Shown here: one piece after another, positions 2,357 through 32,830 of the stretch
Layout of the letters: each line of letters begins with the position of its first letter
How positions within the stretch are numbered: the first letter of the stretch is position 1
DNA from: an uncultured Spartobacteria bacterium
GTDB lineage: Bacteria; Verrucomicrobiota; Verrucomicrobiia; Chthoniobacterales; Chthoniobacteraceae
Direction of reading: 5' to 3'
DNA: 32,830 nt
Assembly (NCBI GenBank): GCA_903929475.1
Contig: CAIYUV010000086.1
Location: forward strand, 1 to 32,830
Made by a program: the position numbers and the translations under genes
The notes under the pieces: generated by a model
Seen by the model: only the letters and a program-made list of their open reading frames with translations
The model's database searches: none
What the model was told of the DNA's origin: nothing

Positions 2357-2731
2357 ATGAGTTACGAAACACTTGAGATTTGGCAGATGGCTCGGACGCT
2401 TTCGGTGGATGTCCATCGAATGACCCTTGCGGATTTGCCGCGTTTTGAACTCCACGAGGAGGGAGGGCAGATTCGCCGCTCCGTAAAATCCATGCGCTCC
2501 AATATAGTCGAAGGCTACGGGCGAAGGCGCTACAAAGCTGATTTCATCAAGTATCTCGTCTATGCGCAGAGTGAATGTGACGAGACACGCGACCACTTAA
2601 AAGTGCTTTGGGAAACTGGCTCGCTGAAAAACGAACCGCTATACCTTGACCTGCTCGAACGCATCGAACACCTCGGTCGGAAAATAAATCTATTCACCCA
2701 AAGCGTCGAGCGCAGCCACCGCACCAAATAG
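2357..2731 (+). CDS. four-helix-bundle protein, S23 / 23S rRNA IVS family
   Basis: A 124-residue protein of the family first named from proteins encoded in intervening sequences of 23S rRNA genes and structurally related to the Avd accessory protein of diversity-generating retroelements. Family signs: the N-terminal [20 protein letters not shown] helix, the central [20 protein letters not shown] signature (about residues 43-62), the F-x-x-YL-x-x-AQSEC-x-E helix (about 67-82), and a C-terminal amphipathic helix. Start 2357 was chosen because the family begins at this methionine; the in-frame ATG at 2276 would run through permease codons and repeat DNA. The role of stand-alone copies is poorly understood; nucleic-acid binding is plausible because the protein is basic. 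It is not an expected part of an ABC transporter. Confidence 0.85.
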
Positions 2732-9568: not shown

Positions 9569-11446
9569 ATGGGACCGTCCCTTGATGTCACTCGCCCCCG
9601 CAACCTCGATTGGAAACGCGCCGCCGCGCTGCTTTACGGCGACTGGGGCACGAGCAAGGCCTACGTCATCGGCTACGCATTCCTCGCCCTCCAATTTGCG
9701 TCGCTGCACACGATCATCGCAGTGTGCGCGGTCACCGGTCTGGTCGGGCTGAATTATCTCGTCATCTGCAAACATTTTCCCGACGGCGGCGGCGTTTATT
9801 CGGCGGCGCGTTCGCAAGGCAGGGCGCTGGCGGTTGTCGGCGCGCTTTTGCTCGTAGCGGATCTGACGGTGACAGCAGCTCTGAGCGGCTACGATTCGCT
9901 GAAGTATTTTTTCCCCTCGATGCCAAACATCTGGGTGCCGGGAATCACCATCCTCGTCGTCATCGCTTTTGGTGTGCTGAATTCATTCGGCCCGCGCCAT
10001 AGTGGCGGACTTGCCGTCGGGCTGGCCGTGCCGATGGTGCTACTCGTAGTCGTGCTCGTCGCGCTGGCGATTCCTCATTTCACCACCGACCTCCAGCCGC
10101 CGCCACCCGGTCATTCCTTTGGAAATGCCTGGGCGTCGTTCGTGAGTTCCATCCTTGCACTGAGTGGCGTGGAGGCCATTGCGAGCCTCACCGGCGTGAT
10201 GAAACTCGATCCCGGATCCACGCCGGAGAAGCCTCGAGTTGGCCGCGAGGCGAAGCGGGCGATTATCCCGGTGGCGATCGAAGTTGTTTTCGGCACAATC
10301 CTCCTCGGCTGGGCGACCATGTCATTGTGGAAATGGAGCCACTCGGCTTTTGCTCCGGAGCAGACGATGCTCACCCGCCTCACCGAGGACAGCTCGCATA
10401 TCCTGCGCGTGCTCGGCGAAGAGTTCGGCACAAAAATGTTCGGCCTCGGCTTTGGCACTGGAATGGGCATTGTCGTCGGTATCGTCGTCGGCCTGCTGCT
10501 GCTCAGCGCCGTGAACACAGCAATCGCCGCGCTCATCGGAATGCTCTACACGCTCGCCCGCGATGGAGAAATGCCACGCGGCTTCCTTGTGCTAAACCGC
10601 CACGGCGTGCCGAAGCTCCCGCTCATCGCCGCCACAGTCATGCCCTGCGTGGTGCTGTGCATCACCTATTTCAACCCCGACAGCGCGCTCGAAAAACTCG
10701 GTGAGCTTTACGCCATCGGCGTCGTCGGCGCGATCACCGTGAACCTCGGCTCCTGCACTTTCAACAAGCAGCTCACCCTCAAAAAATGGGAGCGCAGCCT
10801 TTTTGCGATCACGTTCTTCGTGCTTTTCTGCGTCGAGGTTTCGCTCGCATACGAAAAACATCTCGCGCTTTTCTTCGTCGTCATCGTGCTCAGCGTCGGC
10901 TTCTGGCTGCGCTCACTCTCCCACAAGGCCAGCGGCCTGGCCACCGTCACCGTGGCAAGGGATTTGGCCGAGATGGTTTCGCCAGAAACGATCGAGATGC
11001 TCCGCCCGCAGCCGCTCATCGAAGGACGGAAATTCCTCGTCGCCGCACGTGGCGCAACACCAGTGCTCAAGTTTGCACTCAACGAAGCCAAGCTCCACAA
11101 GGCCGTGCTGTGCGTGCTTTATGTGAAGGAGGTCGCTGTGCTTCTCGGCAGCGCGCAGCCCTCGCAAAGCCGCCGCCTGCGCTGGCAGGACGACCCGCAG
11201 GCCGCCGGTATCATGTCGCTCATGATGAAGCTCGGCGAAGAAGAGGGCGTTTGTGTGCAGCCGCTTTACGTCGCTTCAAGCGACCCCGCAGGGACCATCG
11301 TGGATCTAGCAGCAACACTCGGCGCAGACATGGTGATGCTTGGCTCCACACACCGCATCAACATGGCGCGTTTGCTCAAAGGCAACATCGCCGAACGTGT
11401 CTCCAGCCAACTGCCCGAGAACATCGAACTAATCATCCACGGCTGA
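9569..11446 (+). CDS. APC-superfamily permease with C-terminal UspA domain
   Basis: A 625-residue inner-membrane transporter. It has about 12 hydrophobic helices over residues 20-450. The early motif is YGDWGTSKAYVIGYAF and a later loop reads GVEAIASLTGVMKLDPG, as in amino-acid permeases of the APC superfamily. The C-terminal 140 residues are soluble: RKFLVAARGATPVLKFALNEAK, then VCVQPLYVA, then ADMVMLGSTHRINMARLLKGNIAERV. That is the strand and nucleotide-loop order of universal stress protein (UspA) domains, which may bind ATP and regulate transport. The substrate is unknown. It lies 27 bases upstream of the dehydrogenase gene on the same strand, so the two probably form one transcript. Confidence 0.85.
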   Translation: MGPSLDVTRPRNLDWKRAAALLYGDWGTSKAYVIGYAFLALQFASLHTIIAVCAVTGLVGLNYLVICKHFPDGGGVYSAARSQGRALAVVGALLLVADLTVTAALSGYDSLKYFFPSMPNIWVPGITILVVIAFGVLNSFGPRHSGGLAVGLAVPMVLLVVVLVALAIPHFTTDLQPPPPGHSFGNAWASFVSSILALSGVEAIASLTGVMKLDPGSTPEKPRVGREAKRAIIPVAIEVVFGTILLGWATMSLWKWSHSAFAPEQTMLTRLTEDSSHILRVLGEEFGTKMFGLGFGTGMGIVVGIVVGLLLLSAVNTAIAALIGMLYTLARDGEMPRGFLVLNRHGVPKLPLIAATVMPCVVLCITYFNPDSALEKLGELYAIGVVGAITVNLGSCTFNKQLTLKKWERSLFAITFFVLFCVEVSLAYEKHLALFFVVIVLSVGFWLRSLSHKASGLATVTVARDLAEMVSPETIEMLRPQPLIEGRKFLVAARGATPVLKFALNEAKLHKAVLCVLYVKEVAVLLGSAQPSQSRRLRWQDDPQAAGIMSLMMKLGEEEGVCVQPLYVASSDPAGTIVDLAATLGADMVMLGSTHRINMARLLKGNIAERVSSQLPENIELIIHG

Positions 11447-24258: not shown

Positions 24259-24260
24259 AT
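24069..24260 (-). CDS. doubtful 63-residue reading frame
   Basis: It begins MAAGVGLLVRNGVV and ends GVRRRWRRFGW. Codon third positions are about three-quarters G or C and the composition is plausible for a protein, with a basic tail. Against it: its start codon (24258-24260) overlaps the start codon of the divergent secretin-like gene, and the frame simply continues into that gene's antisense. It may be the remnant of an older gene or part of a dispersed repeat. I do not recognise it. Confidence 0.2.
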   Translation of the reverse strand: MAAGVGLLVRNGVVSRVQTRVASDLFTGLFSIMAAEGKDAAELASVASGAAFGVRRRWRRFGW

Positions 24261-25035
24261 GAAAACCATCCCGCTAACCACCGCCGCCATTTTTGCGACT
24301 GCCGTCTTCACGATGCTCGCCACCGCCGAGGATAAAGCGCCCGCCGAGCCGAAGCTGCCGCCCGTCGAGCCAATCCCGGAAGTTGTCATGCCCGAAAAGT
24401 CGCCTTGGAATGTCCGTGTGGAAGTCCTCATGGTCGCGATGCCGCAGGAGATGGCGCTGGATTTTCTTCCCGAACTGAACGACCGCGCCAGATGCGAAGC
24501 CGCCTTCATCAAGATCCTCGCCGCCATCAAAGACAAAAAGGCCACGCTGACAGGATACCCGATGTTGGAGACTTTGGACGGCAATAGAGCAGTTGCCGAA
24601 AGCAATGTGGAAGTGAGATACCCGACCGAATTTTTCAGCCCTGCGACGCCGCAAAAGGGATATGAGTTAGCGCAGACCTCAAAAGACAAGGCGGTGGAAG
24701 CAGCCGCCGACAATGCAATCCCCGCTGTCTTTGAGACTCGTAACACCGGCCCTATGTTGGAAGTCGCACCGATTGTCTTGGAAAAGGGGGACAGAATCAC
24801 GATGCAGATTGCTCCCTCTCGGACTGAATTGCTCGGTTTCGACTCCTTCTACGCCAAAAATCCGAACGGGAAAGTGGACAAGATGGACCAGCCGCGATTT
24901 TTCACTCCGAAGGTAACCACCAACATCACCGTCCGCAGTGGCGAGCATCGCCTCATCGGGGTTTTCAAGCTGACAAAACCCGAGGGCTTCATCGAGCTAT
25001 TCATCCTCCAAGCGGTCGCGACGCCGGTGAAGTGA
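24259..25035 (+). CDS. secreted protein with a secretin-like C-terminal domain
   Basis: A 258-residue protein with a signal peptide (residues 1-23, cut near ATA-ED) and a proline-rich linker (about 27-48). The rest follows the strand order of the secretin C-terminal region: NVRVEVLMVAMPQE (51-64), a helix, then LTGYPMLETLDGNRAVAESN (97-116) and VRYPTEF. Next come GPMLEVAPIVLEKGDRITMQI (164-184) and PRFFTPKVTTNITVRSGEHRLIG (212-234). It lacks N0/N1/KH domains, and the first signature is short, so it is unlikely to form an ordinary multiring secretin. It may be a stand-alone component of a verrucomicrobial type II secretion or type IV pilus system, or a decoy fold. The domain call is by eye. 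Confidence 0.55.
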   Translation: MKTIPLTTAAIFATAVFTMLATAEDKAPAEPKLPPVEPIPEVVMPEKSPWNVRVEVLMVAMPQEMALDFLPELNDRARCEAAFIKILAAIKDKKATLTGYPMLETLDGNRAVAESNVEVRYPTEFFSPATPQKGYELAQTSKDKAVEAAADNAIPAVFETRNTGPMLEVAPIVLEKGDRITMQIAPSRTELLGFDSFYAKNPNGKVDKMDQPRFFTPKVTTNITVRSGEHRLIGVFKLTKPEGFIELFILQAVATPVK

Positions 25036-25165: not shown

Positions 25166-25837
25166 CGGGAGGGCTCTTCTCTATGGGAGGGGCCCCCATT
25201 CCTTGCGGGGGCGGTTTTCTCTGTTGGAGGGGTTTCCCCATTTCTTGCGGGGTGTTCCCTGCGCGTTGCGGGGTCGTCCATGGACGGTGCGGGGGCGCCC
25301 CCATTTCTTCCATGGACGTCCATGGATGCTGCGGGGGCGCCCCCATTTCGCGCGGGGTCGTCCATGAGCGGTGCGGGGTGACCCCCATTTGCTGCGGGGG
25401 CGTCCATGGACGGAATGGGGCGGCCCCCATTTCACGCATGGACGTCCATGGAAGGCGGAGGGACGTCCATGGACGGCGCGGGGAAGCCCCCATTTGGTGC
25501 GGGGTCGTCCATGAAAGGCGCGGGGACGTCCATGAAAGGCGCAGGGACGTCCATGAACGAGCCGTGGACGTCCAAGAACGGGCCATGGACGTCCAAGAAC
25601 GAGCCGTGGACGTCCATGAATGAGCCGTGGACGTCCAAGAACGAGCCATGGACGTCCAAGAACGAGCCGTGGACGTCCAAGAACGAGCCGTGGACATCCA
25701 AGAACGAGCCGTGGACGTCCAAGAACGAGCCGTGGACGTCCAAGAACGAGCCGTGGACGTCCAAGAACGGGCCGTGGACGTCCAAGAACGAGCCATGGAC
25801 GTCCAAGAACGAGCCGTGGACGTCCGTCAAAACCTCT
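25166..25837. repeat. 21-bp-periodic repeat array, 31 units plus a partial
   Basis: Every unit from 25166 to 25816 is exactly 21 bases and no unit shifts the register. Three unit types are seen. Type A has GGGGCGCCCCCATTT (for example 25292 and 25334). Type B has GGGTCGTCCATGGACG or TGGACGTCCATGGA (25271, 25313, 25355, 25439). Type C, from 25565 onward, is TGGACGTCCAAGAAC plus GAGCCG, twelve nearly identical copies to 25816. Types A and B mostly alternate between 25208 and 25501, giving a 42-base higher-order unit. The array carries the palindromes TGGACGTCCA and CCATGGACGTCCATGG. Because 21 is a multiple of three, seven-residue repeats appear in all six frames. Confidence 0.9.
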
Positions 25838-26118: not shown

Positions 26119-27213
<1,095 letters not shown>

Positions 27214-29136: not shown

Positions 29137-32100
29137 ATGATCCTCCGGGCTTTGATCCTCCTACTGTCGCTGCTCCTTCCCCTCGCAGGGCAGGCAGGCG
29201 TTGTGGTCAACGAGGTCCATTACAATGGGGCGGACAACACGGTGAGCGACGAATTCATCGAACTCTACAACACAGGCACATCCCCGGTGAGCCTCACGGG
29301 TTGGAGGATTTCGGGTGGGGTAAATTATGACTTTCCGGCGGGCACGAGCATTGCAGCCGGTGGATACGTTGTCGTCGCGCAAAAGCTCTCCAGCTTTCAG
29401 ACGAAATTCGGATTTGCGCCGCTCGGGCCTTGGACGGGAACTTTGAAGCACAGCGGCGATCAGGTCACGGTGAAGAATGCGACCGGGGGGATCGAGGACG
29501 ATGTGAATTTTGGCGCAGGTTTTCCATGGCCCACGGCGGCTAAGGGAACGGGGGCTTCCATGGAATTGATCAATCCTTCGCTGGATAATGATCTCGGTGC
29601 TTCGTGGCGCAGTTCTGTCTTGCCCGGAAATCCGACGCCGGGTGCTCAAAACTCCGTCTTTGCGACGAATGCCCCACCCGCAGTGAGGCAGGTTGACCAT
29701 TCTCCCGCCCAGCCTACGGCCAATGTCCCGGTGACTATCACGGCCAAGGTGACGGACCCGGACGGGGTCACATCCGTGACACTCGACTACCAGTCGAATG
29801 ATCCCGGTGCCTACATTCGCAAGAGCGATGCAGCCTACACAACCACATGGACGAGCGTCGCGATGCACGACGACGGATTGAACGGCGACCTCGTGGCGGG
29901 CGACTCGATATTTACCGTGGTGCTGCCCGCAAGTGTGCAGACGCACCGCCGGCTTGTGCGTTATCGGATCAATGTCGCCGATGCCGCCGGGAAAACTGCC
30001 CGAGTGCCCTACGCCGACGACGAGCAACCAAACTTTGCCTACTTCGTTTATAATGGCGCGCCGGCCTGGACCGGTCGCAATCAACCGCCGAACAGCACGC
30101 CGACGACTTTTCCAGCGTCGCTGATGACGACGCTGCCGACGTATCACCTCATCGCCAACGAAACCGATGTCACGAACAGCCAGTGGAACGGTGCATACGA
30201 CACGGTGCGAATGTGGGGCACGCTCATTTACGACGGGAAGGTCTATGACCACATCGCATATCAAAACAAAGGGAGCGCCTCAACCTACGTAAGTGGAAAA
30301 AACAAATGGCGTTTCCATTTCAACCGGGCGCGGGATTTCGAGGCGCGGGATTCGTGGGGACGCCGTTACTCGCAAACGTGGGATACCTTTGAGATGCATG
30401 GCTGTTCAAGCCCGTGGAATCCGTGTTTCCGTGGCTGGGCCGGGCTGGACGAGGTCGTTTCCGCGCGCATCTTTGCTTTTGCTGGCGTGCCCGCGCCGGC
30501 CATGCACCACCTGCATTTCCGCGTGATAGACAACGCAGCCGAAGCGCCGACGGATCAGTATGCCGGTGATTTATGGGGGCTCTACACGGCAGTCGAAGAT
30601 CCCAGCGGTTCGTTTCTCGATGAACGCGGACTGCCGGACGGCAACGTCTATCACATCGCGGGAAATAGCGGCGACAAAACACATCAGGGGGCGACTCAAC
30701 CGACAGATACGAGCGACTGGGATTCATTCCGTAATCTCTCGCAAAGCAACACGGCCAACACCTCCGCCAACGAAACGTGGTGGCGTGCGAATCTCGACGT
30801 GGATGCCTATTCGAGCTTCCACGCCGCGAATCGCATCACCGGCAATGTTGATTTGCGCGAAGGCTGGAACCATTATTTTTACCATCGCGGCACGGATAAC
30901 CGCTGGCTCCCCATCCCGTGGGATCTCGACATGATGTATTTCCCGGAGACGCACTGGAGCGGGACGATCGATCAAAAAAATGCACTGCTCATGTCGGGCA
31001 TCAATATTGATTTCAAAAACCGCTGCCGGGAACTTCTGGATTTGATGTGCGCGGATGGCACGGCGACCGGCGGGCAGATCGGCCAGCTCGTTGATGAATA
31101 CAAACGCATCGTCAGGCCTGCCGGTCAGGCGGCGGGGTGGGATTTGCTGGATCAATATATGTGGAACTACAACCCGCGCACGACCGGCGGACACACCGGC
31201 GCATTTTACCTCCCGAATCCGACGAACGATTCACGAATCGGCGGAACGTGGACGCGAACATACACCACCGCAGATTTCAACGGCATCTGCGATTTCCTCG
31301 TCAACTACGTCACCGACACCGACCCGAACAGTTTTTCCGTGGGCGACGGCGACCAGCGCGGCTACGGCTACAATTATCTCGAACTCGAGGCCGCCGACAC
31401 TGCAGCTCCAAACCGCCCGACGATCACCTTCAGCGGAACGGCGGGCTTCCCCGCGAACGACCTGCGCTTCACCGCAAGCGCTTTCAGCGATCCGCAGGGC
31501 AACGGCACTTTCGCCGCGATGCAGTGGCGCATTGGTGAAATCTCAGCACCGGGAGTCGGCGCGTATGTCGCCGGCGAACCGTTCAAATACGAAATCACGG
31601 AAATTTTTCGCACTGCGGAAATCACGACGTTCGCCGCCGAATACCGCTTCCCACTTTCCACGTGCGAGACAGGCCACGCCTACCGTGTGCGTGTGAGGAT
31701 GAGGGACAACACGGGGCGCTGGAGCCGTTGGAGCGAAGCGGTGCAATTCACCGCGCAACCAGCGAGCAGCCAGCAAGACCTCTCCCGGCTCATCGTGAGC
31801 GAAATCAACTACAACCCGCCGGATCTGGGCGCTGTCTCGGGCGATGAGTTTGAATTTATCGAACTCAAAAATACCGGCCCCGGCACACTCGATCTCGGCG
31901 GGCTCAGTTTCACCAATGGCATCAGCTACACTTTCCCGCTCAACACCACACTGGCGCCCGGTGGTTTTTTTGTGCTCGCGCGGGATGCAACGGTGGGACA
32001 GACGAATTTTCACACACGTTATCCCGGCGTGACGGTGGGCGGGGTCTACACTGGCAAGCTCGACAACAGCGGGGAAAAAATCACCCTCACCGCACTCTCG

Positions 32101-32830
32101 GGAGAAAACATCTTCTCGTTCACCTACAACGACACCACGCCGTGGCCCACTTCGCCGGACGGGAATGGCAATACGTTGGTCCCGAAATCCACCGCCTACA
32201 ATTCCGACAGCGGCGTGAACTGGCGAGCAAGCGCCAATATTTTCGGTTCGCCCGGTGCGGATGATCCGGCTGTGACGACGAGTGTGGTCATCAATGAAAT
32301 CCTCACCAATTCCGCGCCGCCGCTCAAGGACACCATCGAGCTTTTCAACCCCACCAATGCCAGCGTGAACGTCGGCTATTGGTGGCTCTCCGATGATCCG
32401 AACGTCCCGAAAAAATACCAAATCCCGGCGAACACCGTGATCCCGGCGGGCGGCTATGCGGTGTTTGATGAGACGAACTTCAACCCAACGCCGGGAGTAG
32501 GAAACAGCTTCGCGCTCAATTCGGCTGGTGATGACGTGTATCTTTTCTCCGGCGATACCGCCGGAAATCTCACCGGCTACAGCCACGGCTTTACCTTCGC
32601 TGGAGCAGAACAAAACGTCTCCTTCGGGCGCGTCGTCACCAGCGCGGGCGATGAATATTTTCCTCGACAAATAAGCAATACCTTCGGCTCATCAAACAGC
32701 GGCCCGCTCGTGGGCCCGCTCGTGATCAACGAGATCATGTATCACCCCTACACGGGCTACGATGAGTTCATCGAAATCCGCAACATCAGCAACGCAACCG
32801 TCCCGCTTTACGACCCAGCCAACCCCGCCA
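29137..32830 (+). CDS. large secreted lamin-tail / CotH-kinase-like protein (cut by window end)
   Basis: The frame is open for at least 1231 codons to the right edge, so the gene is partial. A signal peptide is clear (MILRALILLLSLLLPLAGQA-G). Domains by eye: lamin-tail (LTD) domain 1 at about residues 22-165 (VVVNEVHYNGADN, DEFIELYNTG); an Ig-like segment about 180-300; a CotH-like region about 335-610 with NKWRFHFNRARDF and a catalytic-type PWDLDMMYF (D596, D598); a fibronectin-like segment about 770-870; and further LTD starts near 885 (LIVSEINYNP), 1050 (VVINEIL) and 1194 (LVINEIMYHP). CotH proteins are secreted protein kinases in spore-formers; here the role is unknown, perhaps surface adhesion or protein modification. 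An in-frame ATG at 29086 would add 17 residues before the signal. Confidence 0.88.
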   Translation, partial: MILRALILLLSLLLPLAGQAGVVVNEVHYNGADNTVSDEFIELYNTGTSPVSLTGWRISGGVNYDFPAGTSIAAGGYVVVAQKLSSFQTKFGFAPLGPWTGTLKHSGDQVTVKNATGGIEDDVNFGAGFPWPTAAKGTGASMELINPSLDNDLGASWRSSVLPGNPTPGAQNSVFATNAPPAVRQVDHSPAQPTANVPVTITAKVTDPDGVTSVTLDYQSNDPGAYIRKSDAAYTTTWTSVAMHDDGLNGDLVAGDSIFTVVLPASVQTHRRLVRYRINVADAAGKTARVPYADDEQPNFAYFVYNGAPAWTGRNQPPNSTPTTFPASLMTTLPTYHLIANETDVTNSQWNGAYDTVRMWGTLIYDGKVYDHIAYQNKGSASTYVSGKNKWRFHFNRARDFEARDSWGRRYSQTWDTFEMHGCSSPWNPCFRGWAGLDEVVSARIFAFAGVPAPAMHHLHFRVIDNAAEAPTDQYAGDLWGLYTAVEDPSGSFLDERGLPDGNVYHIAGNSGDKTHQGATQPTDTSDWDSFRNLSQSNTANTSANETWWRANLDVDAYSSFHAANRITGNVDLREGWNHYFYHRGTDNRWLPIPWDLDMMYFPETHWSGTIDQKNALLMSGINIDFKNRCRELLDLMCADGTATGGQIGQLVDEYKRIVRPAGQAAGWDLLDQYMWNYNPRTTGGHTGAFYLPNPTNDSRIGGTWTRTYTTADFNGICDFLVNYVTDTDPNSFSVGDGDQRGYGYNYLELEAADTAAPNRPTITFSGTAGFPANDLRFTASAFSDPQGNGTFAAMQWRIGEISAPGVGAYVAGEPFKYEITEIFRTAEITTFAAEYRFPLSTCETGHAYRVRVRMRDNTGRWSRWSEAVQFTAQPASSQQDLSRLIVSEINYNPPDLGAVSGDEFEFIELKNTGPGTLDLGGLSFTNGISYTFPLNTTLAPGGFFVLARDATVGQTNFHTRYPGVTVGGVYTGKLDNSGEKITLTALSGENIFSFTYNDTTPWPTSPDGNGNTLVPKSTAYNSDSGVNWRASANIFGSPGADDPAVTTSVVINEILTNSAPPLKDTIELFNPTNASVNVGYWWLSDDPNVPKKYQIPANTVIPAGGYAVFDETNFNPTPGVGNSFALNSAGDDVYLFSGDTAGNLTGYSHGFTFAGAEQNVSFGRVVTSAGDEYFPRQISNTFGSSNSGPLVGPLVINEIMYHPYTGYDEFIEIRNISNATVPLYDPANPA

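Follow-up and report, generated by a model that had tools for sequence, protein, structure and literature searches.

In the window (the whole 32,830-bp stretch of DNA analyzed here; contig C86 in the 295-contig, 4.5-Mb assembly G000), region 25166 to 25825 consists of units repeated in tandem every 21 bp, and related genomes hold many more arrays that keep this unit length in unrelated sequences. Tandem repeats normally form sequence families; in these arrays, the sequence is replaced but the length and the symmetry are kept. With slightly less than even confidence, we assign the array to a structure-constrained 21-bp minisatellite family, whose invariant is structural rather than sequence based and which is tied to a probably mobile gene cassette. 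The descriptive part of this analysis is well supported; the function and mechanism of the arrays are inferred.

Units cut at 25166 + 21n align through 25816, and the array extends over 31 units plus 9 bp. The C unit type stops at about 25825, and just the first 9 bases of 25817 to 25837 fit the unit; hence, there is no full final unit. In the older half of the array (25166 to 25543), the identity is 0.52 at lag 21 and 0.62 at lag 42, the latter being higher because the A and B unit types alternate; the other lags in this half have a mean of 0.28 and do not exceed 0.37, and the best value from 500 shuffles was 0.35. In the newer half (25544 to 25837), the lag-21 identity reaches 0.90, compared with a mean of 0.25 for the other lags. 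In both halves, the register lies far above what chance would give (no value from the 500 shuffles exceeded 0.37), which confirms the run of in-register 21-bp units claimed by a first-pass annotation of this DNA. Additionally, TRF reported 0% indels in the array-bearing rows at periods 42 and 84 and 1 to 2% in some alternative rows. The unit boundaries which that annotation had drawn through 25817 stand as far as 25816, but the last unit is reduced to its 9 matching bases and the register is not unbroken at the left end: the first two units (25166 to 25207) are leader-like, and their TTCTCT(A/G)T(G/T)GGAG motif lies 40 bp, not 42 bp, ahead of the next copy, so that the register slips internally by 2 bp and is then restored. 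The transition from the A/B types to the C type is gradual, with units 25502, 25523, and 25544 as intermediates. The identities also fit the proposal that the 3' half was recently amplified and the 5' half is older, although the copy number of the C units is unreliable in this assembly because C-type units also occur at the start or end of contigs C11 and C183; the 21-bp step is unaffected by this doubt. The parts of the array and the other features are collected in Table 1.

Table 1. Coordinates of the window array, its flanking genes, and related features at other loci
Feature	Position	Strand	Description
Left flanking gene	24259..25035	+	258-aa protein, secretin-type C-terminal domain (PF00263)
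Leader-like first units	25166..25249	+	Include TTCTCTATGGGAG at 25177-25189; leader motif TTCTCTGTTGGAG at 25217-25229
Older A/B part	25250..25543	+	21-bp units, A and B alternating; dyad at unit positions 1-10
A and B units	within 25250..25543	+	A unit, GGGxCGTCCATGGACGGxGCG; B unit, GGGGCGCCCCCATTTCxxGCG
Homogenized C part	25544..25825	+	Unit TGGACGTCCAAGAACGAGCCG; palindrome TGGACGTCCA in every unit
Right flanking gene, convergent	26119..27213	-	PLP-dependent enzyme (PF00291)
Cassette gene loci, multicopy	L253:10320-11015, L264, L044, L206, L061, L256; G286 loci L311-L339		
Heptamer repeats	L253:9667-9699, 11022-11053; L264:8900-8931, 10131-10163; L263:1323-1354, 2420-2451		
LRR genes beside arrays	L251:9194-9389, L261:8176-8351, L244:15758-16161, L053:1-418, L060:1004-1513		

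The array is intergenic and flanked by convergent genes, and the nearest genes around it match the secretin, PALP, and RF-2 families. For the left flanking protein, the best counterpart in the genus has no more than 42% identity, while the right flanking enzyme is probably threonine synthase (thrC). No Rfam family (at gathering thresholds) and no tRNA was found in the window. In the sister genome G007, the DNA is 91 to 93% identical on both sides of the array, and on the left side synteny is lost after the RF-2 gene. The closest named relative, judged by threonine synthase, is a MAG labeled Prosthecobacter debontii (99% protein identity and 86% DNA identity over the shared 3.3 kb), in which no array was found beside the threonine synthase gene. 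At the far end of the window, positions 31789 to 32830 belong to a repeated gene family, because two 79%-identical copies are present in G007 (L246 and L248).

The window's genome, which is Prosthecobacter-like and belongs to Verrucomicrobiota, contains more than 35 arrays of the 21-bp kind. A search with the window array returned about 25 further ones, and more came to light when 369 kb (length after masking) was sampled without bias. The units of these arrays differ, for example, GTTATTGGACGGCGGAATAAC, AAAGGTGGCGCCCCCGCGCCG, and TGACTCCGTTTGCCGTCGGAC, and the period is still 21; the array at C138:53096-53558 is paralogous to the older A/B part (82% identical). Comparison genomes were the sister G007, G001 of the same genus, G019 of the same family, and G286 of another order. 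Among the tandem arrays of the unbiased samples, period 21 was found in 8 of 14 in G000, 8 of 15 in G007, and 7 of 13 in G286, while it was rare in G019 (1 of 11) and in loci of other phyla (1 of 36), where both single cases lie within coding-like ORFs. It is on these samples that the case for the period itself should rest, because the 79 arrays that we pooled from related genomes were selected for period 21. The pooled arrays fall into 40 unrelated unit-sequence clusters, all of period 21, and what they speak for is regularity: by an alignment-free count within arrays, 19,563 of 19,738 repeated 9-mer pairs (99.1%) are separated by exact multiples of 21, and 456 of 458 unit steps in these preselected arrays measure 21 bp. 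Clear shifts of +/-2 appeared in one array only by the same alignment-free count. Compensating indels within units were also considered and set aside: the large gapped count was mostly an alignment effect, and the comparison of arrays with flanks was not significant. In the literature searched, no description of such arrays was found.

The sister genomes reveal how the arrays change. The orthologous arrays on C22 (G000) and C48 (G007) differ by three indels, each of exactly 21 bp, which, for this pair of arrays, agrees with the suggestion that copy number changes in multiples of 21. Directly at the 3' end of the G007 thrC orthologue, we found a 21-bp array of GGACTGGGAGGTCGTTCATGT, which is unrelated to the window units. 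Between C5 (G000) and C70 (G007), the flank is 94.6% identical, the cassette gene described below is 76% identical, and the unit sequences are unrelated, and the array at locus C2 (G000) is missing in G007. According to these comparisons, the sequence turns over fast while the length stays. The arrays gain and lose whole 21-bp units, homogenize locally, and change their sequence freely at a constant 21 bp. The first-pass view that such strict spacing exceeds that of an ordinary minisatellite gains weight from the 40 unrelated units at 21 bp, the exact 21-bp indels, and the retention of 21 bp at one locus under a different sequence. With indels in steps of 21, the arrays also offer typing loci.

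Several observations concern the neighbors of the arrays. Between L052 (C22) and L261 (C48 of G007), the region of the array and a pfkB-like gene exceeds the usual 90 to 93% DNA identity by far, the pfkB-like protein being 98% identical, and this high similarity may reflect recent exchange. In L048 (C177), L251, and L261, array types and neighboring genes (TPR, LRR, and pfkB) are combined differently in the two genomes, which suggests recombination between arrays or misassembly. Leucine-rich-repeat genes with 69-bp repeats often adjoin 21-bp arrays.

Most other G000 arrays share the leader motif of the window array, which has 31 sites in this genome at up to 1 mismatch versus 3 for the reversed pattern and stands almost always at one array end, in the fixed orientation leader to array. 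Several arrays directly precede a gene for a protein of about 230 aa without database match, which we call the cassette gene. Among 36 cassette loci with enough upstream sequence, drawn from the genus and other orders, 33 had their best upstream lag (of 10 to 60) at 21 or 42, with the array upstream in the same orientation; the other three comprise one decayed array and two loci without an array. Some genomes also have a small ORF (MALWSNG...) ahead of the cassette gene and an 85-aa ORF (MPFDPSLP..., ORF2) behind it. Searches for the cassette gene in phages, plasmids, viral contigs, PDB, Pfam, NCBIfam, PADLOC, and PHROGs returned nothing convincing. Of 289 genomes sampled across the phylum, 6 carried this gene family; within the taxonomic family, it was present in 15 of 40. 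Its best identity is 66% between G000 and G286 of another order versus 48% between the congeners G000 and G001, whose threonine synthases are 85% identical; judged from sequence, these incongruent values suggest horizontal transfer or differential loss of paralogues. The cassette gene and abundant 21-bp arrays co-occur in genomes, as seen in four sampled genomes, and G019 has neither the gene nor, in its sample, noncoding 21-bp arrays. Most G000 arrays do not adjoin the cassette gene; neither this gene nor ORF2 was found beside the window array, which is therefore a solo array. Some G007 cassettes are bracketed by tandem repeats of heptamers (CAATCCG and relatives), 32 to 33 bp in length.

Besides the unit length, symmetry recurs in the units. 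In the 35 unit families whose consensus is clear, the longest arm of an inverted repeat has a mean length of 5.29 bp, compared with 3.55 +/- 0.15 bp in shuffled units (0/200), and a mirror-repeat control stayed at chance level. Whole arrays also fold better than their column-permuted versions, with mean z values of -1.7 for one strand and -1.9 for the other (standard error, 0.16). The like behavior of the two strands suggests a DNA symmetry as much as an RNA one. The arrays at L264, L335, and L244:16880 show no dyad above chance. Covariation within arrays was dropped as proof of RNA structure, being weak or unspecific: the window units scored above shuffles, but a slid structure scored higher still, and no covariation was found in another single array.

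The period might in principle reflect coding. The first-pass annotation had offered selection on seven-codon peptides as one cause of the spacing, and in the C part, such repeats would read VDVQERA or WTSKNEP. It agrees with this proposal that 21 is divisible by 3, that no array lacks an open frame, and that a 315-aa minus-strand ORF spans the array. However, variability across array positions has no 3-base phase (0.492 versus 0.490 +/- 0.013), open frames are not significantly above expectation (P of about 0.14), and both frames are broken, that of VDVQERA by a TGA in the unit at 25607 to 25627 and that of WTSKNEP by GGG-TGA at 25376. Other multiples of 3 are, moreover, rare as periods in the intergenic arrays of the sampled genomes. 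We therefore consider peptide repeats very improbable. An origin of the array or its regular register in repeat collapse or misjoining during metagenome assembly seems to us scarcely credible, even a shade less so than coding. The assembly does have 295 contigs, many of them ending within arrays, and C units are common to three contigs; such errors could alter copy number and neighbors, but not the period. The recurrence of period 21, with different sequences, in several independent assemblies speaks against assembly collapse, which the first-pass annotation had itself named as the case against its view. Contigs C11, C22, C140, C153, C183, C184, C200, C233, C276, and others of G000 begin or end within 21-bp arrays, so that the arrays are a main cause of its fragmentation and explain breaks in such metagenome assemblies.

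The strongest rival to a structural constraint is descent with whole-unit turnover. Here, the arrays would be neutral or selfish minisatellites, in which 21 bp is inherited rather than selected, copy number changes by slippage or unequal recombination of whole units, and homogenization swaps the sequence; descent of this kind could preserve 21 bp with little selection. The common leader motif, the copy-number differences in whole units, the lack of a coding signal, and the array types common to several loci (such as the C units, seen at two places, and the GTTATT type, seen at several) all agree with it, and we hold it to be a real possibility, though one we lean against. Unit-length variants (20 bp, +/-1) exist, but not one of the 79 period-21 arrays has shifted to such a length, 21 bp is common to orders of the phylum whose units are unrelated, and descent alone would not predict the enrichment of dyads, unless hairpins promote slippage. 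The spacing, the dyads, and the leader motif might also suit arrays that serve as clustered binding sites of a dimeric DNA-binding protein, set at intervals of two helical turns as in plasmid iterons or operators. Sequence-specific binding is nonetheless unlikely because about 19 unit families, too many for one such protein, occur already in the arrays sampled from the sister genomes G000 and G007, and no rep or regulator gene adjoins the window array; we regard protein sites as improbable. Only a little better placed, and still rather improbable in our judgment, is an array that serves as the 5' untranslated region of the cassette gene, its unit number tuning expression and the solo arrays being remnants. 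The upstream, same-orientation position in 33 of 36 cassette loci and the good folding on both strands speak for such a tract, but most G000 arrays are not beside a cassette gene.

In the structural reading that we prefer, the module would be a 21-bp unit, equal to two turns of B-DNA and usually carrying a short inverted repeat; two helical turns would fit one inverted repeat per unit. The period may be held by DNA geometry or by hairpin formation, with dyads on one helix face or with a tract of tandem hairpins in single-stranded DNA or RNA. Initially, the array may have been a cis-acting tract belonging to a cassette that moves horizontally; the solo arrays, including that of the window, would be separated or independently spread copies. 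It seems possible, though on balance unlikely, that the cassette and an upstream 21-bp hairpin array defined by its geometry make up a new class of mobile element in Verrucomicrobiota, which seeds solo arrays chromosome-wide. The tie to a gene family with a scattered occurrence among orders hints at an undescribed element of some kind. Meanwhile, the question of what sets the length of a repeat unit becomes testable by genome comparison.

Among known systems, plasmid iterons are direct repeats about two helical turns long. The arrays described here are chromosomal, number dozens per genome, and have units that are not conserved, and the window array has neither an adjacent replication initiator gene nor a conserved iteron sequence. 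CRISPR loci combine constant repeats with unique spacers, whereas the C units are contiguous, 90% identical, and without spacers. Small dyads, intergenic position, and many copies recall REP and BIME elements; in contrast to a conserved, dispersed palindromic sequence, the arrays consist of 21-bp head-to-tail tandem units that are not conserved between loci and form 40 unit-sequence clusters. The heptamer STRR repeats of cyanobacteria have a fixed short period, are intergenic, and are defined by the sequence of their units, and 7 divides 21; the present arrays keep period and symmetry alone, not sequence. In freshwater Planctomycetes MAGs, intergenic tandem repeats are the site of many noncoding deletions in lake bacteria (PMC9426551); they belong to another phylum, and that passage mentions neither a constant unit length nor a dyad or an associated gene. 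The arrays resemble VNTRs or minisatellites in that they are intergenic, with head-to-tail units within the 10- to 100-bp range, and whole-unit copy number changes between close genomes (C22/C48; the G007 counterpart of the window array has other units). The usual definition of these repeats includes no leader motif, dyads, or cassette link, and, unlike them, the present arrays hold one length across 40 unrelated unit families and different orders.
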